Shown: piece by piece, positions 37,669-64,000 of the stretch
Numbering within the stretch: position 1 is the first letter of the stretch
Layout of the letters: each line of letters begins with the position of its first letter
Source of the DNA: Boletus sp. NGJ
Taxonomy: Eukaryota; Basidiomycota; Agaricomycetes; Boletales; Boletaceae
Length of the DNA: 64,000 bases
Assembly (NCBI GenBank): GCA_019096195.1
Contig: JAGTXK010000050.1
Span: forward strand, 911,987-975,986
Direction: 5' to 3'
Program-made: the position numbers and the translations under genes
The notes under the pieces: model-generated
What the model was told of the DNA's origin: nothing
Database searches by the model: none
Seen by the model: only the letters and a program-made list of their open reading frames with translations

Positions 37669-37909
37669 TATGATGTTTGCGGATGTAGTATTCAACGACT
37701 ATGGCGACGACGACGACGACGACGACGATGAGGGCGGGGATGCGTTCATGTGATGAGCTCGACGTCGGACTCGGTGGGACAGTCCGAACAAACTTCTGAT
37801 AAAGGGGTTTGCACTTTGAGATACGTGGGAAGTAAATACCGTACAAGGTAAGCTCCCATGAGTCATACTTCGGTCCCTCGTCCGAGCCTTGTTTACAGTA
37901 AACCCTAGT
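37669..37909. promoter_or_regulatory. Divergent UBR1/TRS33 promoter with a GAC repeat
   Basis: A 241-base divergent intergenic region. It carries a GAC trinucleotide run (about 37704-37728) close to the UBR1 start. A possible GT-AG intron in the TRS33 5' leader runs from about 37848 (gtaagc) to 37898 (tttacag). Confidence 0.35.
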
Positions 37910-41661: not shown

Positions 41662-44039
41662 ACGATCTCCACATGAGCCATTTTCGGCTAAGGCACTAAC
41701 TCTTAATCTTACCTTTCTTGTTTACATCAACGTGATGCGCAGACACAATTGTCAACGTGCTCTCACGTCCCGCTGCGGCACTGGCAGTGTGCTAGCTGCA
41801 TTTTCTCTCTTTCCTCCACTTTCCTCTTGAATGAATTTGCCTGGCGACTCGGACACTTCGTCGGATGGGCGGCACTCGCGGTCGACCGGTCATGCATTCA
41901 TGCCTTAGTTCCGTGTCGCAACGGCACGCAAAAATGACAATCATGATAATTCTATTCAACGGTCCGAATCCAATGGACTTGATCCGGATGAACTTTCACA
42001 GGTCAATTGCTTGGTACTCACGCAGGCTTCTAGTATTGCGGACGCGATATAGTCTATCAACTCACGGTCTCACGTCCATTGCACACAAAGCATATACTTA
42101 CAGCACCATGTCAATGCACCTGACCCCGGACGTGATCTCGCACCGGGCATTTAATGGTAAGTCCCGTCGAGGATTTCCTGAACAAGTAGTTTCTATTCAT
42201 GCTGGTATCTAGGAGGTCGGCACATGATGCGAACCGGCTTCCCGAGTCTCGGCATAAATGCAACCCTCCGAGAGTGTACTTAGGCTTGCCAGTGCAGATC
42301 GCAGCACCTGGGAATAAGCCTCTCCCTTGGGAATTCGTGACCTTATCACTGACGTAACTTCTCTCTCGCTAGATTCACCTATCTAGATCAACATACGCCT
42401 CCGCCAGAACGGAGGTGTATATTGATAGCCCTACCGTGCACATGGTCAGATATGAAATGATGATCGCTATATCAAGACCTCGCAAACAGCCATGCACCCA
42501 AAAATACGGGATTGTGCCTTACTCCAGGAAGGGAACGACTGCGTGTGTTTACAGCTGATGTACTGTATATCAATGTCCCTGTTGCAGAGCTGCCAGCTGG
42601 GGTGCCACTTCCATGATTTGAACCCGCAGACAGCAGGAACAGTTTCTCCCGATCGTTGGGGTATATTTTGTATACATACGTTGTGTCGCGACTCGCCATT
42701 AGTAATTGGTTAAAATTTTGCTTGCCGCCCTGTCAGTTCTTCAGCATCCGGTCGCCACTAGTGATTGAGTGGGCATGATGCGACTCTTCCACGTTTCACA
42801 AAGCTACTGTATCATCGGCGGCGAGGAGCTGACTCACTTAGCTTTGCTCGGGATCAGATCATATGTCATCGCCAATCATGATAGATTCAGAGATACCTGG
42901 CCCTGTCTCCACAGATAAGGGATCCTGCAAGATAATGGTCAGTACTTCAGTGCTTGCCCAACCCCACATCGTACAGAGAGCCCTAATGTATATTATTCCA
43001 TTAGTAGGTATCGATTCCAGCAGACACTCCGAGTCACGCCGATACTGTCATTTCACAACGAAGCCAACTGACCATCAAACGAACTTCTAGTAAGTACAAG
43101 CTGGCCCTGCAAGTTACAACGTCGACTGCTAATTTACATATGATTAGCCTCCGAACTACGTTTCCAGTCACTCGGGCCACCCCGCTTGAGCAGCAGTTGT
43201 ATGCCAGGTACTCTTAAGCAATGAATTCACCCAAGCAAGAACCCCGCCACTCGGATCCATCCTCAACGCCTCTCACGCAATCAGAGCTGGTGGCGGTGGT
43301 GTCCTTCGCTCTCGCACACGCCTTGGCCGCTGCGCTTGATAACACGGCCCGAGTCTGAGAAAATGAGGAGTTCTTCGCCGAATCGCACGTACAGCTTCTC
43401 GAGGCACCCGCCACGCACCAAGCCTTTGTTCCTTTTCATTAAGCTGACATATAATTATACCCCGTACCGCGATCATGATGGCGACTGATGGCAGATGAAC
43501 GCCTCGAGCATGGCGCGACAGCTATCCAACCAAGGGGGTTTGTTCGAGTTGGTGCTTAGGGTTTCCGGAAGTTTGTTCCCCCAAATTTAAATGTGCGTCA
43601 GCATTCGGTGATGGCGGAACTGTACAAACCATTGATTGCGAACATGTCGACTCCGTTGATATGGATATTGAAGCTCGTCATAGGTATCATTCGCATCAGC
43701 TAGTAGGTGCACTGCGGCTGCAGCTGCATCAGAGATTTGGATACCGCCCTTTCTGATGGCACTCTGTACTAAAGTTGCCAACCGGCTACGCGTGGTCAGT
43801 TCTCCAACTACATACATTTAGCAATTCATCACCAAAAGACATCTGACCCAAGTAGATAAGGGTTTCGCCAGACATTGGTCGGAGTTTGCCTGCCATTCAT
43901 TTCTGAACTTAATCTTGCCCAGGCACGGCAGCTTATCAAGCGCCCGCCGAACGGATCCTTCGCTTCTCTACGGGCGGGTAACAAAATCTCCACAGCATGG
44001 CCCGAGCACTGGATACCTCCTATACACGATCTACCATTT
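41662..44039. other. 2.4 kb region without a supportable gene
   Basis: Only short ORFs occur. One of 45 codons at about 43221-43358 on the plus strand (MNSPKQEPRHSDPSS to LDNTARV) and one at 43587-43817 on the minus strand have plausible composition but no recognisable motif. No RNA gene was found. Confidence 0.3.
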
Positions 44040-45805
44040 ATGTCGGGCTCAAGCCGTCTTCGATTGAGGAATACAAGCATCGCAACCCCACCTGTCGCTA
44101 GCAATTCGCAGTCCTGCAAGTGCCACTCTCGCATGGCTCAGGCAACAGTGACCTTGGTCCATCACAAACACACTTCGCCGTCGAAGGCGAAGCGAGATGT
44201 ACTTGTGCGTTTGACGTCGGTGGATATTGTCTGTTTGTTCGCAGTTTGTTAACTGTACTTACGGTAGTTTCAGTCCGAACGAGGAGGATCAGGCAACAAT
44301 CGACATTCGAAAACCTCCACTCATTCCGAGCGGTCTCCCGATCCGCTTGTCCTTCATCCTCGCGAACGTCAAGGTACGTCCACCGCAGACAAAGTACGTC
44401 TTTTCTTTCGACCCGCGTGTCCAGAGCTGCCCGCTGAACACCATGATTTCGAACAAAAACAGTTCATGTCCAGCGGGCGAGGGGGCTCTGGAAACATCCA
44501 ACCATCGATGTCTAGTTTGGAGGCCCACCCGCTGACGGCTTCCATTCTCAAGCAACACAGCGCCATGCAGGCGCAGTACGAACAACGAGTGAGAAAAGCC
44601 CATGCGGAGTCCAATGTGGTTGTGAGTCATCTCACTCTACAGCTTGTCCACGTGCATTGTTGATGGTGTCACTTGCAGCGCTCGACCGGGCGGGGCGGGT
44701 CTGGTAATATATCTGATCCGCGCCGGCGGAGCCGTTCGCAAGAGCCCAAGAGTATGTCAAAGAGGCATTTCTTTACGAAAAAGGGTCGGGAAAGAGGTAC
44801 AAGGTGCGATGGCGTCATGCAGGCACACGACGGGGAAAATGGAACCTCTATTATAAGTGACACGGAAAAAAGGTGCGGTGTAATCCGAACTTCTTCCTGT
44901 GACCAGCTCGTTCTGGTGTTAGCTCAATGGATAACGTTCCGTTCCTAGAACAACCGTGTGCTCTTCAGAGAGCTCCAGTGCCAGGGTCGCCCGACAGAGT
45001 GAAGAGAGCCATGTCAGCAGCGCCATGACGTTGAGCAGTGACGTGACATCAGACTCTTTGTCCAGCGGGGAGGCGATAACGGGTCACCGAAGAAAGAGAG
45101 GGAGTTTCCTGATCCGCCGCAGTAGGCCGCCATCGTCAATGAGCGTGGCACCACCCGGATCGCCATGTTCATCACTGCCCACGACGCCAACGTATCCTCG
45201 AAGCTGGCACACTGGCAGCCCTGGCTTGAGAGCACGTTCGTCCACGTCAGTCATCTTGAAGGACCGAGAGTATGTGTCTTTCTTGGAGTTAGTATGATCA
45301 TCCTGCTTTTTTTTATCTTCTTTGATGTTATCCGAGTCTGCCTCATAATATCCATCCGCAATAGTTTATGTTGGTTTCCTTTTTGCAATACATTATGGAT
45401 TGCTCAAAATGTTGGAAATCCCAGTCATGCCCCTGAATATGCAGGTGTGACGCCATAGGCACTCGTGGGATCGGCATCGTCGACGTGGAACAGGAGGAAT
45501 CGTGCGATGCCGACTATCGCGCTCGTGCACGCTCGGCTGTGGGTGCACTTGACCTATTGACAATGCAGGATGCTCTCGCGAACGACACAACAGTGGATGG
45601 GATAATACCCATGTCCTGGATAGAGAGCGAGGTACCAACAGAGTCGCGAGCACGAGCACCTTCGCGGGCGGGGTCAGTGAAGAAGACACCCTCCTCGTCC
45701 GTAAGGGCGAAGCGTGGGTCGATACCGACACCGGTGACGGCCTCGGCGAGGGGAGCGTTCGTTGACCATGTGATCAAGCTTCCCGCAGATGACGACGAGC
45801 ATTAG
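44040..45805 (+). CDS. DUF3602 / PAR32-like protein with GRGGSGN repeats
   Basis: A multi-exon gene contains three copies of the DUF3602 signature: SERGGSGNNRH (after the acceptor at about 44275), SSGRGGSGNIQ (about 44470) and STGRGGSGNISDP (about 44690). The exons between and after them splice in phase. They include LTASILKQHSAMQAQYEQRV, SKRHFFTKKGRERG, a Ser-rich stretch ending in SVILKDRE, and a last exon EQEESCDADYRARARSAV to KLPADDDEH, ending at 45805. In yeast the family member Par32 is a phosphorylated, rapamycin-responsive protein that restrains ammonium uptake. Whether that role holds here is unknown. The start is uncertain (ATG at 44040 or 44133). The last intron is long for this window (about 175 bases). 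It is the last core gene before the transposon block. Confidence 0.72.
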
Positions 45806-46217
45806 GAAAAAGCAAATAAGCCGGTAGTCACTAGGGTTACTATGTAGTGCTCAACGATACATTCGCAAAGTACATATAGCGGCTGGAAACATTGGCATCG
45901 GCCGGGCTCATGGCGAACGAGATCCCAGTTGTGGAACTGGCTTTGGAAGGCTCGCCTGACATTATGTATGTGTCACTTTGCTCAGCACTCGGCTTTGATG
46001 GACAATGCTCAAAACAAGAACAAGGGGGAGTCTATGTTAAGAATCTCCAATAGAATACCATCATATCTGTTAACCAAGTCAGCGAGATGATAGGACGGTG
46101 AAAGCAGACATACATACACCAACTTTGCACCGGCCGGGATGTATATTTTGTGATAGTAACTGTGTGCATGGGCAATTAGTTCATATTATTGATATGACCA
46201 ATGCAGAAAGGCTTACC
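45806..46217. other. Boundary region between core genes and transposon block
   Basis: No gene seen. CpG dinucleotides, frequent up to here, become rare within this interval, which marks the edge of the repeat-rich domain. Confidence 0.4.
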
Positions 46218-47640
46218 GCCCACCCACCACCTCCACCATAAGCATAAGATCTCAGATCACTCATGTAGCCTATACTGTTCAAAAATTGTGAGATTAATAT
46301 GTCTGTTGAGATAAAAGTGTTCAGTGTCAGCTAAGGCATAGCCATGCAACCAATTAGGGTGAACCATGCCCCGAGGAAACCAAGGTATTAAATGACAGTG
46401 TTGAATGATCTGATGGACTGGAATAACTTCAGTGTTGGGAAGCCACTGCCTTGTCAAACAGCTAACATGAAACATCTTGACATTGTTGTCATACGCTTGG
46501 AGAGGTTTGAACCAATGAATGTAAGCCAGTGGCTGAGGATAGTTCCTGAGGTGTGGTGGCAGCCTAAAGATAGCATGGACTTCAGTGACACGCAAACCTA
46601 CAACTTAATTTACTTAGTAGTCATCCATGGCAAACATCACCACATACTGTACCATGCAGCCCACCCTGTTGCTGCTGCAGTTTGGTATCAACATCCACAA
46701 GGACAGTATCAAACCAGGCCAATATAGGCCGCTTGCGAGTTCCATTAGAGTGCTGGGGATGGGCACGAATCCTTGATCTCATGGGCATTGTGTGCTCTAG
46801 TTGAGGGCCACACAAGACCAGATCACCATAGATGTCAAAACAGTCATTGGTGTTGGGTTCGAAGTGCTGCAGCCTTTGAGGGAGGCTACCAACGAACATC
46901 TTGAGTGCATCCAAAAAGCAAATCACACTGTGATGTTGTTTCAAATATTGAACCATCTTCTTTGGAAACTGAGGTTGATGAGAGATCCTATGAGATCTAT
47001 GATGTCTTCCTGGCATAGCGCTGGGAGATGAAGCAAGATACTGATGCCGGTGTTCTGAATCACTAGAAAGTGTACTAGTAGCATCCACATCAGCAGGGGT
47101 AGCAGAATGGCACTGCCAGGCCTGATAACAGCCAAACTACATAATGGCTTCCTGCTGCTGGAGCCACTTGGTCATTTGAATGGTATAATCCTTTCAGCTG
47201 GTTGCAGAATAGGCCTTCTTGGCATAATCAATGTGTAGGCGTTCTGAGATCTCCATATTGAGTTCATCCAATGCTTCTAGCACTTGTATTGTATCAGTGT
47301 AATGAATGAGAGAGTGGAGTTTCAGAATGTTAAAATGATCATGGCAACCAAGGTCAATGAAAACATCCTTCAAATGGTGGAAATCCCCAAGAGCGTGTTG
47401 CAAGGCTGCAAGTGTGTCGTCTGTATGTGAGCGATATTGTGCGAGTTGGACAAAATCCACAAGATTACATGTGGCCCAGATGACACGTGGATCAGTGTTA
47501 GTACCAACTAGTGTGCCAACATCAGTAAAAACAGGACTAACTGTCCAGTGCTGTCCAGTACTGGACAGTAACATAATGCTCATAGTGAGGATCCAACTGG
47601 ATAGTGGTTTGATAGTACTATGACAGTGTCTCATACTCTG
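46218..47640 (-). pseudogene. C-terminal part of a Plavaka-type (CACTA-like) transposase
   Basis: Minus-strand fragments read in order as the end of a Plavaka transposase: DPRVIWATCNLVDFVQLAQY, SHTDDTLAALQHALGDFHHL, HFNILKLHSLIHYTDTIQVL, ERLHIDYAKKAYSATS (the most diagnostic block), then IRAHPQHSN, FDTVLVDVD, VTEVHAIFRLPPHL, YIHWFKPLQAYD, EVIPVHQIIQHCHLIPWFP and HGYALADTEHFYLNRHINLT. Frameshifts and stops separate them. The N-terminal two thirds, which would lie at higher coordinates, are absent. The homology stops near 47580, before a short repeat tract and the edge of the palindrome. The other side of the palindrome does not continue the gene. Confidence 0.75.
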
Positions 47641-47712
47641 TTCATAGTATGGCCATAGTCTGTCATAGTATTCTCATAGTGTCTCATAGTATTCTCATAG
47701 TACTGTACTATG
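47633..47712. repeat. Degenerate 10-11 bp direct repeats (ACTATGA type)
   Basis: On the minus strand the unit ACTATGAGAAT / ACTATGAGAC and variants recurs at least six times with drift. The tract lies between the Plavaka remnant and the palindrome edge. Subterminal repeats of this kind occur near the ends of CACTA-like elements, which would fit a Plavaka terminus. A simple satellite is the alternative. Confidence 0.6.
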
Positions 47713-47715
47713 ATA

Positions 47716-49325
47716 CAGTGACTCCAAAAACCCTTTCCATGCTAACCCTCAATGTGGTGCGCTTCACGCACCACCACACACCGTGGGAATTCTGCTTAGC
47801 TTTGGTGGAGTTATAAATAGTACATACTCTTGGCTACGAGATTGCTCCCTAGGTCATGTGATTTGGTCCACAGGCTGTGGAGATATGATCAATGTGAAAC
47901 AGTAATACCATAAAAAGGGTTTTTTCACTTTTGAACTGATGACTAGGATTTTAGTCAAATCATATCATATTTGCCATTGTTTGTTTATGCAAACAAAGAT
48001 ATACATATAAATAGCATGTCTGAGCTTAAAAAAGTTCACACACTTCTTGATTCTCAACCACCACCATGGTCAAATCCCTCTTCCTTCCCTAACAAAGCAC
48101 TATTCTCTTTTTGCTTGATTCTGGCTGCTCTGGTGAAGCCATTGCCAAGCAAACTGGTGTCAGCCCTTCTGCCATATCCAAGCTTCACTCCAAAGAGTGT
48201 TCTGCCCTTCCCAAAGCTCCTGGGGGTCATTTTTCCAAGCTTTCTCCCACCAACATTCATCATGCCCAACATCTAATCACTTTTGAGAAAGCTGAAAATG
48301 CTGTCCAAATAACCAAAGCCCTCACCAATATCATCAACCAACCCCTCTCTGCCAATGCTGTCTGCCTCCACTTGAAGAAAGCTGGTATGAAAGCTGTGGT
48401 GAAGTCCAAACGTCCCCTCCTCTCTGCTAGGCATTGCAAGGCTCATTTGGATTTTGCCTATACACATAAGGATTGGACTATGGAGGATTGGAAGAAGGTG
48501 ATATGGTCTGATGAGACCAAAATCAATCACCTAGGATAAGATGGGTGTAAATGGGCATGGAAGAGGGCAGGTGAGAGGCTTAGTGATAGGCTGGTGAATA
48601 GAACCCTCAAGTTTGGAGGAGGTTCTCTGATGATGTGGGGCTGTATGACTTTGGAGGGAGTTGGCTTTGCTACCAAGATTGATGGTAGGATGGATGGGGA
48701 CCTCTACCTTCAAATTTTGAAGAATGAGCTTAAGCAAACCCTGGAGTATTATGGTCTCAATCCTCCTAACATCATCTTTCAGTAGAACAATGACCCCAAG
48801 CATATCTGCAGGGTCAAGAACTGGCTAGAGGAGCAAGAATTCAGTACTATGATGTGGCCTGCACAATCTCCTGACCTCAACCCTATTGAACATCTCTGGA
48901 GTTGTCTAAAGAGGAGCCTTGCAAAGCATGAAAACCCCCCTAATGGAATTCATGAATTGTGGGAAAGGGTTCAAGTGGAGTGGGATAGGATACCAGTGGA
49001 GGAGTGTCAGAAATTGATTGAAAGCATGCCTAAGAGGATTTAGGCAGTGCTTAGAGCAAAAGGAGGCTATATCAAGTACTGATAATATCCAAATACCCTT
49101 TTCAATTCAAAAGTGAAAAAACCCTTTCCATGGTATTACTGTTTCATATTGATCATATCTCCACAGCCTGTGGACCAAATCACATGACCTAGGGAGCAAT
49201 CTCGTAGCCAAGAGTATGTACTATTTATAACTCCACCAAAGCTAAGCAGAATTCCCACAGTGTATGGTGGTGCGCATTGCACACCACATTGAGGGTTAGC
49301 ATGGAAAGAGTTTTTGAAGTCACTG
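47716..49325 (+). mobile_element. Tc1/mariner element, left arm copy
   Basis: A 1,610-base element starts CAGTGACTCC and ends with the reverse complement of the related CAGTGACTTC, flanked by TA on both sides (47714-47715, 49326-49327) as expected for Tc1/mariner insertion. The terminal inverted repeats are about 220 bases (47716-47937 and 49106-49325) and differ at scattered sites, mostly C/T. The transposase gene inside is broken. Confidence 0.9.
48066..49082 (+). pseudogene. Tc1/mariner transposase with four premature stops, left arm
   Basis: A continuous frame of 339 codons, the normal length for the family, starts at an ATG in strong context (48066) and ends with TGA at 49080. It contains an N-terminal helix-turn-helix (LDSGCSGEAIAKQTGVSPSA), a second DNA-binding segment and the DDE domain: VIWSDETK (first Asp), FQ-stop-NNDPKH (second), and SPDLNPIEHLWSCLKR (Glu). 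Stops occur at codons 9, 158, 240 and 326; the last two look like CAG to TAG changes. The second catalytic Asp appears as Asn (GAC to AAC). The enzyme is dead, and the pattern is C-to-T decay with no indels. Confidence 0.9.
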
Positions 49326-49464
49326 TATGACATTACTGGCCTTGTCAAAGCATGATATGGCTTACATGATGTTACATAATATTATGTACCATTACAAAAA
49401 TGAAATCTTAGCTATGTATTCACATATAACACCATACTGAGCTAAGTACTTAGCAGTGATGAAC

Positions 49465-49870
49465 TTACAGTACAATCACTACTGCCCAAAATGAAAGATT
49501 GCTCATGGTCAATGGATAGCACACATTCCCTTCACTTTGGTTGTAGCAGTAGGTTGGACTCTTGGAGCCTTTTGAATGCATCTTGCATGTCCATCTTTGT
49601 TGGAGTTCTTGGATCAATTCTATATGTTGGTCTGATTCATTCCTTGGATTATGGTGATTATTTGATGATGACGACTTCTATTGGGGTATTCTCTGAGATC
49701 CTAAACCTCTCACACTCTAGAAATGGCATGTGAGTGATTGAACAACATATAATAATAATACTTACACCTTTGCTACTATTTCCAGACTGACTTGAACCAC
49801 CACTGTTGCTATCACCAACACCTGCATCCTCAAAGCAAACAAAGGAGTTCTTAGATGCACGATCTGACAT
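49465..49870 (-). pseudogene. Fragment of an unnamed TE-associated gene (QQRW...CYN type), left arm
   Basis: A first exon (MSDRASKNSFVCFEDAGVGD and a Ser/Gly-rich end with a GTAAGT donor) is followed by ELIQELQQRWTCKMHSKGSK, SPTYCYN and YPLTMSNLSFWAVV before a stop or donor. The block with Trp, a Cys/His pair, CY and a terminal aromatic is recurrent in uncharacterised agaricomycete repeat-associated proteins. I know of no function. An in-frame stop lies between the pieces. A second, different member of the same family sits at the palindrome axis. Confidence 0.5.
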
Positions 49871-50348
49871 ATTTCTACTTGGAAGATGTGTAACAACACA
49901 TAGAGGTCGCATTCACCTTTTAAATAAGTTGAGTTTATCTGTTGTCTATACTGAAATTAGCCCTTGTTTTGGCTTGTCACAATTCAGTTGATATTGGGGT
50001 CTGACTAGATTAGGAAATCATGCAGTCTTCTCTCCAATATAGTTGCAAAGCTTCTCAAAGGTGAGAGTGGATTCTATGTTAAATGGTGTGTTTGAGCCAT
50101 CTGATTGGTGAACCATGCATTGTATGATAAATGCTGTAGTGGTATACAAGAATGAGAAATAAAAATAAACATTGATTTGACACAAAAAGATGGGGCTTAT
50201 AGTGATTGTTAGGATCCTCAGAGCCGTCAGGATTGTTGAAATTAACAGATTTTACATGAGGTAATCCACTATCCTGAGTTGAATTCACTTTTGCATTGGC
50301 ATGCTAGCATGATACCAGTACAGGCTTAGGCTTCGTTATATTTTGACA

Positions 50349-51193
50349 TCATTCATATAGTAGTTGCATGTTGAGACTGACCTCATCATTATCATCTCTA
50401 TGATCATCACTGGCACCTGAGACATCCATATTGAAATCTTTACTGCACTCGCTTTCATATGCCACCATATCAGCCTCTCCTGGGTCATCAGGAGTGAAAA
50501 TGCTGGTGTATGTTTCTGGGTCCCTCATCAGTGCAACTGATCCAAATAAAACCATCTGGGGGATGTGATTGTCAGCTTGATTATTCCAGTCATAGTGTTG
50601 GATGGATTCATCAACTTCTTTATATTCAGCAATGGAATACAAGTCTTCATATGTATATACAGAGACCACCACTGGAGCATCTGCAACTGCATATAACACA
50701 ACATGTTCTTGTAATCCTGAGTCAAGGCTATGAAGGCCACAGGCCATATGCATCATGAGAAGTTAATGATCATATCATTTAGGTTTGTGTACATACCAAT
50801 AGTTGTCCATTGAGTTGAAGGACATGAAGGGTTGAAACTTGAAGATGTAGGTTTCCTTAATCTAAGGTCTGCTGGTGGGATGCTGTTATCATGTGATGTG
50901 TGAGTACAACTGGTGGGAATTTTAACAAGTTGACATGCCTTAGCCTGTCCATGGTCTAAGCATTTGCCACAAGCAGCAGCTCTAGAAAGAAACTTGCAAT
51001 GTGTCTTGAGTAAATGGCAGAGTTTGCATGCCTTAGACTTCTTTGTAGCATCTGGTTTGACATGTGAGCAATGCATCTTTAAATAAATTAGTAGAGATGT
51101 ACTTTTAGCCTGAGGATGTCTTTTGAAGGCCTGAACATGTGACATCTTAGTGTCACTTACTATATTGAGCTGTTTTTGCTTTCTGGGAGACAT
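50349..51193 (-). CDS. Zn2Cys6-type zinc cluster protein, left arm copy
   Basis: Two exons join in phase to 251 codons. Exon 1 (51193-50797) starts MSPRKQKQ and carries a zinc cluster with spacing CX2CX6CX8CX2CX8C (CKLCHLLKTHC, then ACGKCLDHGQAKAC), within the range of fungal Zn2Cys6 DNA-binding domains. An 89-base GT-AG intron leads to exon 2 (50708-50349), an acidic region (EYKEVDESIQHYDWNN, FTPDDPGEADMVAYESECSK, SDDHRDDNDEVS) that could act in transcriptional activation. Unlike its neighbours it has no premature stop. No Zn2Cys6 middle homology region is present and the protein is short. It may be a transposon-encoded regulator. The role is inferred from sequence style only. Confidence 0.55.
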
Positions 51194-51995
51194 GTTATTT
51201 GTCTGACTTATGGCTATTCAAGATGTGAGGAATCTCGCATCTAGAATTTATAACCTTCAGCCTTGTGTCAATTATATTACATAGGATCCCATACTACTTA
51301 TGAATGTCACATTGAGATATAAATGTCCAAGTTTATGCAACAAGAAGACAGATATGATGTGAATGGCTGCATGAGCCTGAGTGAGTTGATAATGTGACAA
51401 AGATGCAACAAGGTACTTGACAAATCATGGATTAGATCGAAGTTTAGATCTGCATCAAGGATATTGAGCACAATATAAAGGGTTGATTAGTTGTTGCCAA
51501 AACCAATGATGTTGCCATCACAGATGACAAGAATTATTTTTCTGTTAGTTATTATATTTCAGCTGCATAAGCAAGTCAATAGTGTGAGACACTGAGGTGT
51601 ATTACAAGAACAGACCTAGACACCAGGGCAAACTTTGGTTGTCAACCATGCCAATGCCAGTGGGGCAACTTCACTACTTTGCACCTGGACAGCAGGACTT
51701 CAGTTGATGTACTAGTTTGTCAGATTATAAATGAGATCATCATAAATGTCAAGGAAGTGACCCAGGATCACCAAGCTGGATATTTCTACAAGGGTGTAAT
51801 CAATGTAGCCGATATGGTTGTTTCAATGTTGGGACATGAATTATTGGTTGGGTTATAGATGACTGGTGTGACTTCAAAGTATTCTAAGAGGTCATGTGTT
51901 CTATTAGATTGGATACCAAACATATCATACACATTGAGTTGCACCATGAGTACAGTACATGTTGCAAAAAGCACAGTACATTATAATACAATGTA

Positions 51996-53244
51996 CTATA
52001 CATAGCCACAATGCACATACCATCCATGCACATCCTGGAGTGTGATCACATACAAAGCCACAAGAAGTGCAACAAAAATGTCTTGATTAGCCATCTCAGT
52101 CATTGTCATATGAGTGTAGTCACTATTCCTATAAAGGTGATATTTCATTGCTGAAAAAGCGAGTTCAATCATGTTGAAATCAGGAGAATAGGGCAGTAAG
52201 AATTCACAATGCATTCCACTGTATAAGATGATCAGCTCATATTCATGAGATCAAGTGATTATATTACCAAGCTTGAATGAGTTCCTGAATGTCAGAATGC
52301 TTGTGAATTTAGCAATTATCCATCACAATAACAGAATTCAGAGAAGAGAATGGCTGCATAAATTCAAGTAATTGCTCAATAAAGTTCTTGAATGTTGCCA
52401 TGTAGAAAGACTCTCATAGTGTAGGATGCCTTTAATAAGTGAGAGTGTAGGCAAAATCAAAAAAACTGTGCCATTGTTAGTAAAGATAAATATATTGATA
52501 ATAAATTATGACTTACTGTCACCTGTGCACAAAGAACACTTTTCACTATGCCTTGGTGTTTCAAATTGACCATGCATGATCACAATAAGTCATTCATTGA
52601 TCTACTGTACAGAGCTTTGATTTACAAAGACCAACTAGTTTGCCTCATATAATCCTATTCTAGCCAAGTATTCTAGTCATTTTTCTGCAGATCTTTCTAT
52701 AGTGACAGATATGACCTAGATAGATAAGGGGCAATCAGCTGGTATCACAATTATAAATCAAAACACCAGCATATTTTTTTCATTGTGAATCCTATATATT
52801 GAAGTGTTCTTCAAATAGTGGAGTATAAAATCTGAACATCGCAAGACATCACCAACATTTCTTGGAGCTTGTCCAAGTACAGATTGGGAGTTTTCTGAAT
52901 GCAACCTAGATGAGACTGAATAATTTTATATGTTATCTTATCAATGATCAATACTCAATTCCAATTACTACCTCAACATCTTTACTGTGGAGGTGTGTTC
53001 CTCTCTTCAACAGTGGCTGCTGGATACATTCACCTATTGGATTGCAGACTGTGCCATATCTATAGAAGTGTAATAGGACTTGTTTGGCTATGCAAGTTGA
53101 TATATTGACACATATAGCAATGTGCTCAAAATTGAGGAATTTAGAGAGCCATACTGTCATCCATTGAATTTCAGGGGTAGTTTGTTGGCCTTGCAGCATG
53201 TCTGCAACATATTTTCCAGCTCTGAAATGCAGAAGGGAACACAA
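51996..53244 (-). pseudogene. Second DDE transposase (Tc1/IS630-like), decayed, left arm
   Basis: Fragments follow the order of agaricomycete IS630/Tc1-like transposases: a helix-turn-helix part with CIAKQVLLHFYRYGTVCNP, FIEQLLEFMQPFSSLNSV, IVMDNC (second catalytic Asp), and LLPYSPDFNMIELAFSAMKY (final Glu) ending in DVHGWYVHCGYV at 51999. Many stops and frame changes separate them. It is a different lineage from the Tc1/mariner element at the arm edge. I could not define terminal repeats for it. Confidence 0.7.
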
Positions 53245-54595
53245 AACTTACTGTATGTACAAATCTCAATACTCTAGATTTTTTTTTCCTCCTCTAGTTG
53301 ACACAAATAGTATTCTCTAGCCTCTTCTGAGTCAAATGGTATTGTTTGCACTGTGATCCAGTTTGTTTTCAAGGCGTAATGGTTGAATGATGACAAGAAG
53401 AAATTTTTTACATATATAATTTTCTTATGGGATCAAGTCATGTGAAAAATACAGTAAGCATAGCAATTGCCACAATTTTCCCACTCACTTTGGTCAACAG
53501 CCATCTCTTTTAACTGACCATAACATTAGGGAATTGGTGATAGTACAATTGGATCACCAGGTTAGCAATGGTAACTATCTCTTCTGATGATGATTCCATT
53601 GATCAGGCCACAAGCTCAGGAATCAAGCAAAGCAGCTCACGAAACACCATATATTCTTGTCTTTCTCTGAAGAAGGATTGTGGATGAACCAACAGATCTA
53701 TATTAAGTTTACTCATGCAGCTGTCAAAGACTCCTGCTGTTCTTTATCACCCATAAACAAGAGGCCATTCATTGGTGATGAGGGTTTGAATGTTGCAAAA
53801 TGCATGCACAGACTGCCCAAAGTATCTCCTATAGTGAATGAGTGAATCCTGGATTATTTTAAAATGAGTTCAGCACCAGTGTCATTGTGTCATTAAAAGC
53901 ACTCTCACAGTTTTTTCCTAGGTCCAAGCTGCAAAGCTCTAGAGTGCATGTGCTTCTGGCCAGTTGCTGCATCAGATGATGAGCTATGTATCGCAGCAAT
54001 CATACTGCATGATTAGTATGAGATGGTAGCAGTAAATTGACTCAGAAATAAAAGGATGATTGTTCACTGCAGCCCAAGGAAGGAGAGGGCAGTGCATTTC
54101 TTATTTTATAGTGGTTTTATATACCAACAATTAGCTTAGAAGAGCCCATGACTGAATGGCTTTTGCCAAACTCTCTGCTGATCTTTCTAGACTTATAATG
54201 CTTCTACAAACTTGAATGGAGATTCTCATTCCTGATATTGTCACTTCATGCTGCAACTTCAAGTTCTAGCTCAGACTCAGATACTATATATTTTGCCATA
54301 CTCTAGTCTGCTTGGACTTCCTATTTCTGCAAATGGAGATTGACACTTCTGGAAACTATGTCCTAAAACCATGGCCTTTATCAGTCATCCATGCTATAGT
54401 TCTGTTCACATCCTTATTGAGTAATCTTGTAGTACTACTAAAACTGCTACTAATCTGCACCTCCCGAACTCCCTAGTGGACCTACTGTACACAAACAATG
54501 AGTTCCAACACCCCAGCTTACAAATATAATGCTGAAAGAGTCCCTATTATCTAATAGACAACAGGACTTCTCAGTTCAGTGATACAGTTCTCCAT
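53245..54595. other. Arm-internal AT-rich sequence, left arm
   Basis: CpG-poor sequence with one unrecognised ORF on the plus strand (53657-53845, MSFSEEGLWMNQQIYIKFTH) that may be a relic of another element. Nothing else was identified. Confidence 0.35.
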
Positions 54596-55725
54596 GTGAA
54601 GTGTCAACATTCCTTGTCTCTGCATGAGCCTGTAGATGTTGGTGCACACAGCCTACTAGCTACTGGCCTCACTTCCATCCCTAAAAGGCTTGATGGATTT
54701 GATAATTCTTATGGCACAGCACACTTCAATGATCAGACTGTCAAGTTTGGTGATCTGGTTGAGCTCATGAGTGTGGTTATGGATGGTGGACCTATTGACT
54801 TTGACTTTGAGTTAGAGGTAGAGATGGTAATGGGACAAGAAGCCATAAATATTTTAATCTGGAGCAGATAATAACAGGCTCAAGCAACAATTTCAATCTT
54901 GGCGGTTCAGATCCAGACAATGGCTTGAGTGCTCTCATTGAACAACAGTGTCCCCACCTACAGCCACTAGCCAAGCCTGTGCATATCAAATGCCTACCAT
55001 CAGCCAAGCCTGCTAGCAAGGAAAAGGTCTTGATGAAGCCTTTGTATGACTCAGCAACATGTAGTAGGTTGTGTTCACATGTGTTTTGAGTTGATGTATA
55101 TACTGATCCATTTTTTTCCACTAGTTTTCAAGATCTGATGTGCTGTGCTTCAATCTCAGGGAATAAAGATGTTGCAGATTCAGTTCCAGATATCATCTGA
55201 TATTACTCTTGATGAACTTCACACTGTCATTGCAGAGAAACTATAATGGTTTCCAGGGCTTGTCAAACTTCAATATCAACTTGATTGCAAGATGAAGACA
55301 GCCTTTATTTCCATACAGTCAGACAATAAACTTGAAATGTTTGTAGAAACAGTGCAACCACTCATTGTTCCTCCCTGTCTTGCCAACAGAAAAGCCATCA
55401 ACTCAACCAATGAAGCCTGTGACAGTTTACTTTGATGATATAGCATCAGAGAATAAGTGAGCTGATCCAGCACCCACTGGGAATTATAATAAAGCAGTAT
55501 ATTGAACATTCAGTTGCATATTTATTATTTATTCTATTCTCTAGGATGCAAAAAGCTCAGGATCATCATCTGAATAGAAGCTATTGTTATCATCAAACCC
55601 TAAAATGGATGGAATGGAAATGCAACAGGAGTTTATCACAGCACTCCATAAGCAGTAAAAGTGTGATGTGCACTTGAAGAACTCTGACAACCCTGTCTAT
55701 TGCTACAATCTGCCTGGTAGCACAC
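54596..55725 (+). pseudogene. TE-associated gene cut by the palindrome axis, left arm
   Basis: Plus-strand pieces read SLHEPVDVGAHSLLATGLTS and FDFELEVEMVMGQEA (54596-54871), then ITLDELHTVIAEKL, WFPGLVKLQYQLDCKMKTAF and NKLEMFVETVQPLIV (about 55190-55380), and finally KCDVHLKNSDNPVYCYNLPG right at the axis. The last block belongs to the same family as the fragment at 49465-49870. In that relative a further block with a terminal aromatic follows, and here the sequence turns back instead. Several in-frame stops show it was already dead. The part beyond the axis is missing from both arms. Confidence 0.5.
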
Positions 55726-55740
55726 GTGTGCTACCAGGCA
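55711..55740. other. Symmetry axis of the palindrome
   Basis: The axis falls inside GCACACGTGTGC (55720-55731), a short natural palindrome with no unpaired loop. There is no spacer, adaptor-like or linker sequence at the junction. Confidence 0.95.
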
Positions 55741-56855
55741 GATTGTAGCAATAGACAGGGTTGTCAGAGTTCTTCAAGTGCACATCACACTTTTACTGCT
55801 TATGGAGTGCTGTGATAAACTCCTGTTGCATTTCCATTCCATCCATTTTAGGGTTTGATGATAACAATAGCTTCTATTCAGATGATGATCCTGAGCTTTT
55901 TGCATCCTAGAGAATAGAATAAATAATAAATATGCAACTGAATGTTCAATATACTGCTTTATTATAATTCCCAGTGGGTGCTGGATCAGCTCACTTATTC
56001 TCTGATGCTATATCATCAAAGTAAACTGTCACAGGCTTCATTGGTTGAGTTGATGGCTTTTCTGTTGGCAAGACAGGGAGGAACAATGAGTGGTTGCACT
56101 GTTTCTACAAACATTTCAAGTTTATTGTCTGACTGTATGGAAATAAAGGCTGTCTTCATCTTGCAATCAAGTTGATATTGAAGTTTGACAAGCCCTGGAA
56201 ACCATTATAGTTTCTCTGCAATGACAGTGTGAAGTTCATCAAGAGTAATATCAGATGATATCTGGAACTGAATCTGCAACATCTTTATTCCCTGAGATTG
56301 AAGCACAGCACATCAGATCTTGAAAACTAGTGGAAAAAAATGGATCAGTATATACATCAACTCAAAACACATGTGAACACAACCTACTACATGTTGCTGA
56401 GTCATACAAAGGCTTCATCAAGACCTTTTCCTTGCTAGCAGGCTTGGCTGATGGTAGGCATTTGATATGCACAGGCTTGGCTAGTGGCTGTAGGTGGGGA
56501 CACTGTTGTTCAATGAGAGCACTCAAGCCATTGTCTGGATCTGAACCGCCAAGATTGAAATTGTTGCTTGAGCCTGTTATTATCTGCTCCAGATTAAAAT
56601 ATTTATGGCTTCTTGTCCCATTACCATCTCTACCTCTAACTCAAAGTCAAAGTCAATAGGTCCACCATCCATAACCACACTCATGAGCTCAACCAGATCA
56701 CCAAACTTGACAGTCTGATCATTGAAGTGTGCTGTGCCATAAGAATTATCAAATCCATCAAGCCTTTTAGGGATGGAAGTGAGGCCAGTAGCTAGTAGGC
56801 TGTGTGCACCAACATCTACAGGCTCATGCAGAGACAAGGAATGTTGACACTTCAC
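55726..56855 (-). pseudogene. TE-associated gene cut by the palindrome axis, right arm
   Basis: Mirror copy of 54596-55725 with the same reading frames and stops, reading away from the axis on the minus strand. Confidence 0.5.
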
Positions 56856-58206
56856 ATGGAGAACTGTATCACTGAACTGAGAAGTCCTGTTGTCTATTAG
56901 ATAATAGGGACTCTTTCAGCATTATATTTGTAAGCTGGGGTGTTGGAACTCATTGTTTGTGTACAGTAGGTCCACTAGGGAGTTCGGGAGGTGCAGATTA
57001 GTAGCAGTTTTAGTAGTACTACAAGATTACTCAATAAGGATGTGAACAGAACTATAGCATGGATGACTGATAAAGGCCATGGTTTTAGGACATAGTTTCC
57101 AGAAGTGTCAATCTCCATTTGCAGAAATAGGAAGTCCAAGCAGACTAGAGTATGGCAAAATATATAGTATCTGAGTCTGAGCTAGAACTTGAAGTTGCAG
57201 CATGAAGTGACAATATCAGGAATGAGAATCTCCATTCAAGTTTGTAGAAGCATTATAAGTCTAGAAAGATCAGCAGAGAGTTTGGCAAAAGCCATTCAGT
57301 CATGGGCTCTTCTAAGCTAATTGTTGGTATATAAAACCACTATAAAATAAGAAATGCACTGCCCTCTCCTTCCTTGGGCTGCAGTGAACAATCATCCTTT
57401 TATTTCTGAGTCAATTTACTGCTACCATCTCATACTAATCATGCAGTATGATTGCTGCGATACATAGCTCATCATCTGATGCAGCAACTGGCCAGAAGCA
57501 CATGCACTCTAGAGCTTTGCAGCTTGGACCTAGGAAAAAACTGTGAGAGTGCTTTTAATGACACAATGACACTGGTGCTGAACTCATTTTAAAATAATCC
57601 AGGATTCACTCATTCACTATAGGAGATACTTTGGGCAGTCTGTGCATGCATTTTGCAACATTCAAACCCTCATCACCAATGAATGGCCTCTTGTTTATGG
57701 GTGATAAAGAACAGCAGGAGTCTTTGACAGCTGCATGAGTAAACTTAATATAGATCTGTTGGTTCATCCACAATCCTTCTTCAGAGAAAGACAAGAATAT
57801 ATGGTGTTTCGTGAGCTGCTTTGCTTGATTCCTGAGCTTGTGGCCTGATCAATGGAATCATCATCAGAAGAGATAGTTACCATTGCTAACCTGGTGATCC
57901 AATTGTACTATCACCAATTCCCTAATGTTATGGTCAGTTAAAAGAGATGGCTGTTGACCAAAGTGAGTGGGAAAATTGTGGCAATTGCTATGCTTACTGT
58001 ATTTTTCACATGACTTGATCCCATAAGAAAATTATATATGTAAAAAATTTCTTCTTGTCATCATTCAACCATTACGCCTTGAAAACAAACTGGATCACAG
58101 TGCAAACAATACCATTTGACTCAGAAGAGGCTAGAGAATACTATTTGTGTCAACTAGAGGAGGAAAAAAAAATCTAGAGTATTGAGATTTGTACATACAG
58201 TAAGTT
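56856..58206. other. Arm-internal AT-rich sequence, right arm
   Basis: Mirror of 53245-54595. The single unrecognised ORF is at 57606-57794 on the minus strand. Confidence 0.35.
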
Positions 58207-59455
58207 TTGTGTTCCCTTCTGCATTTCAGAGCTGGAAAATATGTTGCAGACATGCTGCAAGGCCAACAAACTACCCCTGAAATTCAATGGATGACAGTAT
58301 GGCTCTCTAAATTCCTCAATTTTGAGCACATTGCTATATGTGTCAATATATCAACTTGCATAGCCAAACAAGTCCTATTACACTTCTATAGATATGGCAC
58401 AGTCTGCAATCCAATAGGTGAATGTATCCAGCAGCCACTGTTGAAGAGAGGAACACACCTCCACAGTAAAGATGTTGAGGTAGTAATTGGAATTGAGTAT
58501 TGATCATTGATAAGATAACATATAAAATTATTCAGTCTCATCTAGGTTGCATTCAGAAAACTCCCAATCTGTACTTGGACAAGCTCCAAGAAATGTTGGT
58601 GATGTCTTGCGATGTTCAGATTTTATACTCCACTATTTGAAGAACACTTCAATATATAGGATTCACAATGAAAAAAATATGCTGGTGTTTTGATTTATAA
58701 TTGTGATACCAGCTGATTGCCCCTTATCTATCTAGGTCATATCTGTCACTATAGAAAGATCTGCAGAAAAATGACTAGAATACTTGGCTAGAATAGGATT
58801 ATATGAGGCAAACTAGTTGGTCTTTGTAAATCAAAGCTCTGTACAGTAGATCAATGAATGACTTATTGTGATCATGCATGGTCAATTTGAAACACCAAGG
58901 CATAGTGAAAAGTGTTCTTTGTGCACAGGTGACAGTAAGTCATAATTTATTATCAATATATTTATCTTTACTAACAATGGCACAGTTTTTTTGATTTTGC
59001 CTACACTCTCACTTATTAAAGGCATCCTACACTATGAGAGTCTTTCTACATGGCAACATTCAAGAACTTTATTGAGCAATTACTTGAATTTATGCAGCCA
59101 TTCTCTTCTCTGAATTCTGTTATTGTGATGGATAATTGCTAAATTCACAAGCATTCTGACATTCAGGAACTCATTCAAGCTTGGTAATATAATCACTTGA
59201 TCTCATGAATATGAGCTGATCATCTTATACAGTGGAATGCATTGTGAATTCTTACTGCCCTATTCTCCTGATTTCAACATGATTGAACTCGCTTTTTCAG
59301 CAATGAAATATCACCTTTATAGGAATAGTGACTACACTCATATGACAATGACTGAGATGGCTAATCAAGACATTTTTGTTGCACTTCTTGTGGCTTTGTA
59401 TGTGATCACACTCCAGGATGTGCATGGATGGTATGTGCATTGTGGCTATGTATAG
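58207..59455 (+). pseudogene. Second DDE transposase (Tc1/IS630-like), decayed, right arm
   Basis: Mirror copy of 51996-53244, with the IVMDNC and SPDFNMIELAFSAMKY blocks and the same stops. Confidence 0.7.
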
Positions 59456-60257
59456 TACATTGTATTATAATGTACTGTGCTTTTTGCAACATGTACTGTA
59501 CTCATGGTGCAACTCAATGTGTATGATATGTTTGGTATCCAATCTAATAGAACACATGACCTCTTAGAATACTTTGAAGTCACACCAGTCATCTATAACC
59601 CAACCAATAATTCATGTCCCAACATTGAAACAACCATATCGGCTACATTGATTACACCCTTGTAGAAATATCCAGCTTGGTGATCCTGGGTCACTTCCTT
59701 GACATTTATGATGATCTCATTTATAATCTGACAAACTAGTACATCAACTGAAGTCCTGCTGTCCAGGTGCAAAGTAGTGAAGTTGCCCCACTGGCATTGG
59801 CATGGTTGACAACCAAAGTTTGCCCTGGTGTCTAGGTCTGTTCTTGTAATACACCTCAGTGTCTCACACTATTGACTTGCTTATGCAGCTGAAATATAAT
59901 AACTAACAGAAAAATAATTCTTGTCATCTGTGATGGCAACATCATTGGTTTTGGCAACAACTAATCAACCCTTTATATTGTGCTCAATATCCTTGATGCA
60001 GATCTAAACTTCGATCTAATCCATGATTTGTCAAGTACCTTGTTGCATCTTTGTCACATTATCAACTCACTCAGGCTCATGCAGCCATTCACATCATATC
60101 TGTCTTCTTGTTGCATAAACTTGGACATTTATATCTCAATGTGACATTCATAAGTAGTATGGGATCCTATGTAATATAATTGACACAAGGCTGAAGGTTA
60201 TAAATTCTAGATGCGAGATTCCTCACATCTTGAATAGCCATAAGTCAGACAAATAAC

Positions 60258-61102
60258 ATGTCTCCCAGAAAGCAAAAACAGCTCAATATAGTAAGTGACA
60301 CTAAGATGTCACATGTTCAGGCCTTCAAAAGACATCCTCAGGCTAAAAGTACATCTCTACTAATTTATTTAAAGATGCATTGCTCACATGTCAAACCAGA
60401 TGCTACAAAGAAGTCTAAGGCATGCAAACTCTGCCATTTACTCAAGACACATTGCAAGTTTCTTTCTAGAGCTGCTGCTTGTGGCAAATGCTTAGACCAT
60501 GGACAGGCTAAGGCATGTCAACTTGTTAAAATTCCCACCAGTTGTACTCACACATCACATGATAACAGCATCCCACCAGCAGACCTTAGATTAAGGAAAC
60601 CTACATCTTCAAGTTTCAACCCTTCATGTCCTTCAACTCAATGGACAACTATTGGTATGTACACAAACCTAAATGATATGATCATTAACTTCTCATGATG
60701 CATATGGCCTGTGGCCTTCATAGCCTTGACTCAGGATTACAAGAACATGTTGTGTTATATGCAGTTGCAGATGCTCCAGTGGTGGTCTCTGTATATACAT
60801 ATGAAGACTTGTATTCCATTGCTGAATATAAAGAAGTTGATGAATCCATCCAACACTATGACTGGAATAATCAAGCTGACAATCACATCCCCCAGATGGT
60901 TTTATTTGGATCAGTTGCACTGATGAGGGACCCAGAAACATACACCAGCATTTTCACTCCTGATGACCCAGGAGAGGCTGATATGGTGGCATATGAAAGC
61001 GAGTGCAGTAAAGATTTCAATATGGATGTCTCAGGTGCCAGTGATGATCATAGAGATGATAATGATGAGGTCAGTCTCAACATGCAACTACTATATGAAT
61101 GA
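60258..61102 (+). CDS. Zn2Cys6-type zinc cluster protein, right arm copy
   Basis: Identical mirror copy of the left-arm gene: exon 1 60258-60654, intron 60655-60743 (GTATGT to TTACAAG), exon 2 60744-61102. The two copies read towards the outer ends of the palindrome, back to back around the axis. If they are transcribed, both give the same protein. Confidence 0.55.
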
Positions 61103-61580
61103 TGTCAAAATATAACGAAGCCTAAGCCTGTACTGGTATCATGCTAGCATGCCAATGCAAAAGTGAATTCAACTCAGGATAGTGGATTACCTCATGTAAA
61201 ATCTGTTAATTTCAACAATCCTGACGGCTCTGAGGATCCTAACAATCACTATAAGCCCCATCTTTTTGTGTCAAATCAATGTTTATTTTTATTTCTCATT
61301 CTTGTATACCACTACAGCATTTATCATACAATGCATGGTTCACCAATCAGATGGCTCAAACACACCATTTAACATAGAATCCACTCTCACCTTTGAGAAG
61401 CTTTGCAACTATATTGGAGAGAAGACTGCATGATTTCCTAATCTAGTCAGACCCCAATATCAACTGAATTGTGACAAGCCAAAACAAGGGCTAATTTCAG
61501 TATAGACAACAGATAAACTCAACTTATTTAAAAGGTGAATGCGACCTCTATGTGTTGTTACACATCTTCCAAGTAGAAAT

Positions 61581-61986
61581 ATGTCAGATCGTGCATCTAA
61601 GAACTCCTTTGTTTGCTTTGAGGATGCAGGTGTTGGTGATAGCAACAGTGGTGGTTCAAGTCAGTCTGGAAATAGTAGCAAAGGTGTAAGTATTATTATT
61701 ATATGTTGTTCAATCACTCACATGCCATTTCTAGAGTGTGAGAGGTTTAGGATCTCAGAGAATACCCCAATAGAAGTCGTCATCATCAAATAATCACCAT
61801 AATCCAAGGAATGAATCAGACCAACATATAGAATTGATCCAAGAACTCCAACAAAGATGGACATGCAAGATGCATTCAAAAGGCTCCAAGAGTCCAACCT
61901 ACTGCTACAACCAAAGTGAAGGGAATGTGTGCTATCCATTGACCATGAGCAATCTTTCATTTTGGGCAGTAGTGATTGTACTGTAA
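61581..61986 (+). pseudogene. Fragment of an unnamed TE-associated gene (QQRW...CYN type), right arm
   Basis: Mirror copy of 49465-49870, with the Ser/Gly-rich first exon, GTAAGT donor and the QQRWTCKMHSKGSK block. Confidence 0.5.
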
Positions 61987-62125
61987 GTTCATCACTGCTA
62001 AGTACTTAGCTCAGTATGGTGTTATATGTGAATACATAGCTAAGATTTCATTTTTGTAATGGTACATAATATTATGTAACATCATGTAAGCCATATCATG
62101 CTTTGACAAGGCCAGTAATGTCATA

Positions 62126-63735
62126 CAGTGACTTCAAAAACTCTTTCCATGCTAACCCTCAATGTGGTGTGCAATGCGCACCACCATACACTGTGGGAAT
62201 TCTGCTTAGCTTTGGTGGAGTTATAAATAGTACATACTCTTGGCTACGAGATTGCTCCCTAGGTCATGTGATTTGGTCCACAGGCTGTGGAGATATGATC
62301 AATATGAAACAGTAATACCATGGAAAGGGTTTTTTCACTTTTGAATTGAAAAGGGTATTTGGATATTATCAGTACTTGATATAGCCTCCTTTTGCTCTAA
62401 GCACTGCCTAAATCCTCTTAGGCATGCTTTCAATCAATTTCTGACACTCCTCCACTGGTATCCTATCCCACTCCACTTGAACCCTTTCCCACAATTCATG
62501 AATTCCATTAGGGGGGTTTTCATGCTTTGCAAGGCTCCTCTTTAGACAACTCCAGAGATGTTCAATAGGGTTGAGGTCAGGAGATTGTGCAGGCCACATC
62601 ATAGTACTGAATTCTTGCTCCTCTAGCCAGTTCTTGACCCTGCAGATATGCTTGGGGTCATTGTTCTACTGAAAGATGATGTTAGGAGGATTGAGACCAT
62701 AATACTCCAGGGTTTGCTTAAGCTCATTCTTCAAAATTTGAAGGTAGAGGTCCCCATCCATCCTACCATCAATCTTGGTAGCAAAGCCAACTCCCTCCAA
62801 AGTCATACAGCCCCACATCATCAGAGAACCTCCTCCAAACTTGAGGGTTCTATTCACCAGCCTATCACTAAGCCTCTCACCTGCCCTCTTCCATGCCCAT
62901 TTACACCCATCTTATCCTAGGTGATTGATTTTGGTCTCATCAGACCATATCACCTTCTTCCAATCCTCCATAGTCCAATCCTTATGTGTATAGGCAAAAT
63001 CCAAATGAGCCTTGCAATGCCTAGCAGAGAGGAGGGGACGTTTGGACTTCACCACAGCTTTCATACCAGCTTTCTTCAAGTGGAGGCAGACAGCATTGGC
63101 AGAGAGGGGTTGGTTGATGATATTGGTGAGGGCTTTGGTTATTTGGACAGCATTTTCAGCTTTCTCAAAAGTGATTAGATGTTGGGCATGATGAATGTTG
63201 GTGGGAGAAAGCTTGGAAAAATGACCCCCAGGAGCTTTGGGAAGGGCAGAACACTCTTTGGAGTGAAGCTTGGATATGGCAGAAGGGCTGACACCAGTTT
63301 GCTTGGCAATGGCTTCACCAGAGCAGCCAGAATCAAGCAAAAAGAGAATAGTGCTTTGTTAGGGAAGGAAGAGGGATTTGACCATGGTGGTGGTTGAGAA
63401 TCAAGAAGTGTGTGAACTTTTTTAAGCTCAGACATGCTATTTATATGTATATCTTTGTTTGCATAAACAAACAATGGCAAATATGATATGATTTGACTAA
63501 AATCCTAGTCATCAGTTCAAAAGTGAAAAAACCCTTTTTATGGTATTACTGTTTCACATTGATCATATCTCCACAGCCTGTGGACCAAATCACATGACCT
63601 AGGGAGCAATCTCGTAGCCAAGAGTATGTACTATTTATAACTCCACCAAAGCTAAGCAGAATTCCCACAGTGTGTGGTGGTGCGCTTCATGCACCATATT
63701 GAGGGTTAGCATGGAAAGGGTTTTTGGAGTCACTG
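62126..63735 (-). mobile_element. Tc1/mariner element, right arm copy
   Basis: Mirror of 47716-49325 with TA at 62124-62125 and 63736-63737. Its inner terminal repeat is identical to that of the left copy. The outermost 67 bases (63669-63735) differ from the left copy at eight sites, so this end derives from another member of the family. Confidence 0.9.
62369..63385 (-). pseudogene. Tc1/mariner transposase with four premature stops, right arm
   Basis: Mirror copy of 48066-49082 with the same four stops and the same loss of the second catalytic Asp. Confidence 0.9.
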
Positions 63736-63737
63736 TA

Positions 63738-64000
63738 CTTCAATTCAGTTTCACATATACTAATGGTACTGTATCTGCAAAGTGTTCTCCACACAGTCAC
63801 ATGCAAGACCTGAGTACTATAGGATGCTTATAACATTTCTTGGAGTTCATCTACAGAAAAAAGTGTCCCAATGTTTGGCTATTTTGCAAAGACTTGACAT
63901 TTGCAAAAGAACCAAAAGGTATTAGCCCTAACCCTTGCTGGGCCATTGATAGCCCTAATCCTTGCCCTGAAGATGAGCCCTTAGTCATGTGAGTTGGTTG
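63738..64000. other. Right flank of the palindrome, unidentified AT-rich repeat-like DNA
   Basis: It shares nothing visible with the left flank and does not continue the Plavaka gene. A loose duplicate (agccctaaccc / agccctaatcc) occurs at 63923-63962. No ORF of note. Confidence 0.4.

Follow-up and report, generated by a model that had tools for sequence, protein, structure and literature searches.

A spacer-free 16 kb palindrome at the end of a Boletus contig: a probable foldback artefact bounded by a Tc1-type transposon

Does a 16 kb palindrome without a spacer, found in the last 64 kb of a contig of Boletus sp. NGJ (assembly GCA_019096195.1, contig JAGTXK010000050.1), reflect a structure that the fungus maintains, or one that arose while its DNA was copied, read and assembled? 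The window, by which we mean the whole 64,000-nucleotide stretch analysed, comprises bases 911987-975986 of that contig (C73 hereafter; 975,986 bp); the assembly has 141 contigs totalling 32.8 Mb. The original prediction left two outcomes side by side, a palindrome tolerated and homogenised by the cell and a fold-back artefact. The position at a contig end, a second foldback on another contig (C79) and a switch between transposon copies at the outer boundary favour the artefact without proving it, and homogenisation is not needed. With a probability of roughly 0.56, the palindrome stems from foldback molecules or reads at the contig tip, combined with a transposon-mediated join, and not from a structure maintained in the cell.

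The palindrome is composed of two arms, both delimited by direct comparison with each other:

47714-55725, plus strand: left arm (segments W and X, introduced below)
55726-63737, minus strand: right arm, the reverse complement of the left

It is present in the assembled sequence, and its length rules out chance. Each arm measures 8,012 bp. Recomputation returned the axis between 55725 and 55726, the coordinate sum of 111451 and the absence of spacer and indels exactly as first described, together with the mirrored open reading frames (ORFs), for example 50349-50756 (minus strand) and 60695-61102 (plus strand), whose ends sum to 111451. The earlier description of identical 7.9 kb arms applies to the inner part, where 47783-55725 and its mirror show 0 mismatches in 7,943 positions; the full arms carry eight mismatches (47754, 47761-47766 and 47782), all of them within the outer 69 bp (47714-47782). 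The G+C content lies mostly between 0.47 and 0.55 outside the palindrome vs 0.36-0.42 inside.

A second, larger foldback opens contig C79 (422,432 bp). Its arms of about 26-33 kb turn at a 1-nt centre at position 32907, and bases 6873-58938 mirror each other at 99.987%. Both foldbacks thus have near-identical arms with no or a minimal spacer: 0/7,943 mismatches and 0 nt in the window, and 26 kb with a 1-nt centre and two further indel sites on C79. Beyond C79:58938 the right arm holds 4.07 kb that are absent from the left, after which the mirror resumes for about 5.4 kb with three 1-base indels. In the outermost 1.2 kb of the C79 mirror (68400-69600 against 1-1400) there are 87 substitutions and 32 small indels. 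The substitutions are AT-shifted on the right arm; all 32 indels are bases missing there, 19 of them only G or C. Judged from its sequence, this outermost stretch looks like another copy of a repeat or a poorly called region.

The two contigs are connected by one short segment, which adjoins the axis of the window:

55281-55719, plus strand: segment X (439 bp), common to C79, with two 1-base indels relative to C79
55720-55731, no strand: centre of the window axis, GCACAC/GTGTGC (the slash marks the axis), in which GTGTGC(TA) is the unfolded C79 sequence just past X and GCACAC is its mirror, replacing unfolded TCAAT

At high identity the foldbacks of C73 and C79 share X alone, and they share it in facing order. 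The C79 axis stands at the left end of X and the window axis at its right end, so that the axes lie about 445 bp apart. From X, C79 runs rightward into a sequence that we call C (the right arm of C79), which is absent from the window, and the window runs leftward into a sequence that we call W (the window arm), which is absent there in C79. Elsewhere the window resembles C79 through Tc1 relatives and fragments at 64-76%, and through the contig-end repeat. Besides 72% fragments, X matches only C73 and C79 (4 of 4 candidates scored); for the unique part of W, the only matches are the C73 arms themselves (2 of 2 candidates); and the 1,256 bp of C that directly follow X matched nothing but the two arms of C79 among the 40 of 72 candidates scored. 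Because each contig shows the unfolded sequence past the axis of the other, the order W-X-C can be reconstructed for the pair. The simplest reading of these sequences is that C73 and C79 are neighbours, and that one locus, W-X-C, has been reflected on both sides of X. A single palindromic element present at two loci with a common axis is ruled out, since about 445 bp separate the axes, one at either end of X. Further palindromes had also been considered on contigs C35 (coordinate sum 394814) and C107 (sum 97710), and were rejected because 301 bp at each centre are not palindromic. What these contigs do carry are mirrored repeat pairs with constant coordinate sums (C107:30915-32206 with 65542-66795; C35:190472-190731 with 204083-204342), which may be spaced inverted duplications or chance mirrored repeats.

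As each axis can be compared with its unfolded form on the other contig, the turns can be read base by base. At the C79 axis the unfolded form, taken from the window, is ATCAA-C-TTGAT, a 5 bp inverted repeat with a 1-nt centre; this is exactly where the foldback turns, and its centre base is the complement of the unfolded one. Of 33,436 background positions, 86 have a stem of at least 5 bp with a 0-1 nt centre. For the window axis, C79 supplies the unfolded form, CCTGGTATCAATGTGTGCTATCAATTG, and the foldback reads CCTGGTAGCACAC up to the axis and GTGTGCTACCAGG after it. As regards short inverted repeats in the unfolded sequence, the C79 axis has a 5 bp stem, and the window axis has only 2 bp (TA) plus mirrored filler. 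There, a snap-back on TA would leave an 11-nt loop that is then opened within the loop, and the 6-nt end GTGTGC would be filled in and joined to its mirror. Such a two-step course fits the sequences that are read at the axis, its steps being a reconstruction. P nucleotides formed in hairpin opening resemble this filler. The signatures at both axes point to a molecule that turned back, not to a base-caller that ran on, and they would look the same in the cell and in the tube.

The outer boundary of the palindrome is formed by a transposon, for which three features are relevant:

47714-49327, plus strand: decayed Tc1/mariner-type transposon, left-arm copy, with inverted ends of about 226 bp, TA borders and transposase pieces
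62124-63737, minus strand: mirror copy of this transposon in the right arm, its outer TA being the palindrome boundary
47783-47788, no strand: switch from the transposon copy of C7 type to that of the palindrome, from arm mismatches and alignment with contig C7

The assignment to Tc1/mariner is based on TA at 47714-47715 and 49326-49327, ends that are 93-94% complementary, and matches to a DDE_3 domain above its cut-off and a helix-turn-helix domain just below; the transposase frame is interrupted by stops. This transposon has many copies in the genome, with at least 120 matching stretches including inverted ends (40 of 356 candidates scored), and the copy in the arms is about 5% diverged from the nearest copies among the matches listed. 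Contig C7 carries its own Tc1 at the same TA as the left border of the palindrome. Over the outer 75 bp, the left arm differs from the Tc1 of C7 by one indel and the right arm by six columns. Beyond 47788 the left arm differs from it in 74 of 1,547 columns, while the right arm matches the left perfectly. The eight outer arm mismatches therefore arise because the Tc1 of the left flank, which is of C7 type, switches to another Tc1 copy within 47783-47788, and the neat boundary of the palindrome at a transposon end has the same cause. To go by the alignments, the switch may be an assembly join through the repeat or a true recombination. As it explains the only differences between the arms, no homogenisation by gene conversion is needed.

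These observations bear most directly on the idea that the palindrome is old and its arms have stayed identical through gene conversion, or that the 16 kb form a composite Tc1 element, mobile as a whole and with giant inverted ends. The perfect inner arms and the two outer borders, both Tc1 ends with TA, are what either would predict, and the 5% divergence of the arm Tc1 from the nearest listed copies indicates that the arm sequence itself is old. However, the left flank belongs to the C7 locus, which carries a Tc1 of its own at the TA of the left border, so that this TA marks a solo Tc1 site and not a 16 kb insertion; the outer mismatches follow the switch of Tc1 copies and not the edge of a conversion tract; the unique part of W is found nowhere else; and stops interrupt the transposase frame. 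One with 8 kb ends is ruled out by the solo Tc1 site at the left border, and we hold this whole family of explanations to be very improbable. Mutation of the repeat-induced point mutation type was likewise rejected as the cause of the low G+C content, as the C-to-T and G-to-A changes between the arm Tc1 and that of C7 have no clear dinucleotide preference. The Tc1 ends (47754-47770 and its mirror, and the ends of loci L015-L044) also hold a small hairpin of the type GGTGCGC...GCGCACC, the loop of which has a few highly variable bases; some copies look flipped (TTCA vs TGAA types).

The contig setting completes the evidence for a foldback artefact:

63738-64000, plus strand: right flank to the end of contig C73 (263 bp), of which 63857-64000 is a repeat

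The palindrome ends 263 bp from the end of C73, and the C79 foldback takes in the contig start. The repeat at 63857-64000, which makes up the last 144 bp of C73, occurs in at least 39 other places (40 of 273 candidates scored), and both foldback contigs end in, or less than 200 bp from, a high-copy repeat. Two or more consecutive TTAGGG units were found neither in the window nor in C79:1-70000. We favour the artefact because both foldbacks lie at contig tips, because the contigs stop at or near repeats, and because the boundary is a switch between repeat copies.

A foldback origin would work as follows. The true locus would have the order R'-Tc1-W-X-C. The 3' end of a strand would snap back on a short inverted repeat and copy itself during library preparation or amplification; turning back at the right end of X would yield W-X/X'-W' as on C73 (the slash marking the turn), and turning back at the left end C'-X'/X-C as on C79. 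In a poorly resolved repeat region, the assembler would take both foldbacks as contig ends, and it would then link a C73-type flank to the palindrome through the multi-copy Tc1, creating an apparent boundary at the transposon end. The sequence relations are directly visible; we infer that the turning took place outside the cell. Foldback reads are a known long-read artefact: their arms may adjoin directly, they can appear repeatedly at the same site, and assembly graphs can become tangled by them (PMC12870357). Amplification chimeras are mostly inverted, and over 70% of those described in PMC1855051 were primed at 2-21 nt. Like such foldback reads and chimeras (PMC12870357, PMC6218980, PMC1855051), the palindrome is a nearly perfect mirror whose spacer is absent or minimal; complementarity over a few bases primes the chimeras, and both kinds of molecule are known to disturb assembly (same sources). 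Unlike them, the palindrome stands in a finished contig, and another contig carries its facing counterpart at a distance of about 445 bp.

Several points weigh against this explanation. In PMC12870357, foldbacks amount to about 0.55-0.6% of nanopore genomic reads and are virtually absent from PacBio HiFi data, and the present assembly may come from reads of either kind. In the example given there, other reads cross the foldback site unbroken. Normal reads through W-X-C should have let the assembler join the contigs, and searches of the assembly with X, the unique part of W and the first 1,256 bp of C found no unfolded W-X-C allele. Rare and randomly arising artefact reads would hardly be expected to yield two facing foldbacks within about 445 bp, and the 5 bp inverted repeat on C79 and the mirrored 6 bp insertion in the window fit replication or repair in the cell equally well. 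The C79 arms cannot be one molecule that was copied, given the 4.07 kb in the right arm only and the differing outermost 1.2 kb. Finally, X has two 1-base indels between the contigs, though each palindrome is symmetric.

Some of these points would be accommodated by real giant palindromes in one nuclear lineage. Converging or broken forks at X would have turned back, giving reciprocal mirror chromosomes (W-X/X'-W' and C'-X'/X-C), and the outer Tc1 of the arm would later have recombined with the Tc1 of the C7 locus. The facing axes about 445 bp apart, the presence at each axis of either a short inverted repeat or templated filler, and the 4.07 kb difference between the C79 arms agree with such an origin. 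So does the flank identical to C7 (11,940 bp compared), which begins where 18.6 kb are deleted, with 2 bp common at the join, as a recent rearrangement would leave it. However, one product would be dicentric and the other acentric, and their joint persistence is not expected; in the assembly neither palindrome is enclosed by long unique flanks, C73 having just 263 bp on one side and C79 none; and searches of the assembly did not find the unfolded W-X-C allele that a mixed culture should contain. We consider real palindromes in the cell unlikely, though they deserve to be kept in mind. More specifically, C73 and C79 could be the reciprocal products of a single event in the nucleus, in which converging forks ran past each other at X over about 440 bp before each turned back, one mirror chromosome being rescued later through Tc1 recombination; this exact scenario is a distinctly doubtful one.

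Inverted fusion of chromosomes at stalled forks in fission yeast produces a dicentric and an acentric mirror chromosome. The pair described here resembles these products in being reciprocal palindromes that face a common site, seen here in the assembly sequence alone. Y-chromosome palindromes have long arms that are kept alike by gene conversion. The Boletus palindrome shares with them long, nearly identical inverted arms, and differs in having no spacer, no intact gene that was recognised, and a boundary that is set, at a contig end, by a change of transposon copy.

Another view takes both inverted junctions as genuine and the long arms as false. A small inverted triplication (SIT), X-X'-X, would lie between W and C, and the assembler would have walked wrongly from X' into W' or C'. 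Two oppositely facing inverted junctions around 439 bp correspond to the duplication-inversion-duplication (DUP/INV/DUP) layout (PMC13334657), and a triplication would account for both contigs turning at X. More broadly, the locus is like SIT and the inverted triplications of origin-dependent inverted-repeat amplification (ODIRA) in that the C73 and C79 axes bound X as oppositely facing inverted junctions, of which at least one may lie at a short inverted repeat (PMC13334657, PMC10766183). However, C73 passes the second expected junction straight into W', so that no contiguous X-X'-X, and with it no contiguous DUP/INV/DUP, is seen, and long mirrored arms stand in its place. Symmetric palindromes with two 1-base indels in X between the contigs would be impossible for a single X-X'-X without consensus error, and 1.3 kb is easily spanned by long reads. 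The dimensions differ as well. The SITs in PMC13334657 have median lengths of 148/160/148 bp and spacers with a median of 30 bp, and most ODIRA repeats in PMC10766183 span 40-80 bp, whereas X has 439 bp and the centres here measure 1 nt and 0 nt. A genuine triplication is thus improbable.

If the palindrome is an artefact, which we judge likelier, it shows how an assembly can come to contain a 16 kb palindrome that is perfect and neatly bordered by transposon ends, and it provides signs for recognising such cases, namely a facing foldback on another contig and a switch of repeat copies at the outer boundary. Contigs C73 and C79 are flagged for checking, and perhaps for breaking and rejoining. 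If it is a true product of the cell, it would be a naturally formed pair of reciprocal foldbacks in which each junction can be read, and it could serve to test models of palindrome formation, its two axes being a base-level record of reciprocal foldback. To our knowledge, reciprocal foldbacks are known mainly from engineered yeast loci.

The remainder of the window is related to contig C7:

202-47713, plus strand: left flank, allelic or redundant to C7, without 18,607 bp (C7:114213-132819), from sequence comparison with C7
8072-8073, no strand: junction skipping these 18,607 bp, with 2 bp (AC) common at the join, from the C7 alignment

To the right of 8072, C73 equals C7 with 0 differences in the 11,940 bp compared (8072-9951, 25252-25311 and 37700-47699). 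To the left, 202-261 are exact to C7, and the offset shifts by 201 bp between 261 and 6300; window bases 6300-8073 (1,774 bases) align with 1,772 bases of C7 at a rounded 100% and a score below that of an exact match, which indicates a few differences. The first 2,000 bp of C7 have no match to C73. On these alignments C7 and C73 seem to represent the same region in two versions, and the missing 18.6 kb at 8072-8073 may be a heterozygous deletion or an assembly skip. Within the missing stretch, the 8.1 kb of C7:124700-132819 contain ORFs that appear genic by eye, with putative lipoyl-transacylase-like and methyltransferase-like frames. Window bases 32250-35288 encode a UBR1-type protein with which proteins of two Boletaceae, Lanmaoa asiatica and Imleria badia, share 87% identity, and unnamed proteins up to 92%.

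The palindrome had also been thought to matter because it doubles the gene count over 8 kb. This is formally true, and only decayed transposon DNA was recognised among the nine reading-frame pieces of the left arm that were scanned against Pfam, namely seven of its twelve ORFs of at least 80 amino acids (or cuts of them) and two shorter transposase frames. As the frames were unspliced, spliced genes could be missed. Two of the nine pieces gave matches, both to the decayed Tc1 transposase (HTH_Tnp_Tc3_2 at 31.1 bits, cut-off 31.5; DDE_3 at 37.7, cut-off 28.6), and the other seven had no Pfam match at E values up to 0.1; searches of the window with Rfam (gathering threshold) and for tRNAs gave no hits. 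The doubling therefore seems to matter little, with no working gene demonstrated as doubled even if the palindrome is real. The arm also contains, at 49471-53461, about 4 kb with decayed relatives (82-83%) on contig C18 and, for part of it, on C127. A short sequence from about 53400-53460 recurs inverted beyond the other end of the C18/C127-related stretch, which suggests that 49471-53461 belongs to a larger DNA transposon of about 5 kb.

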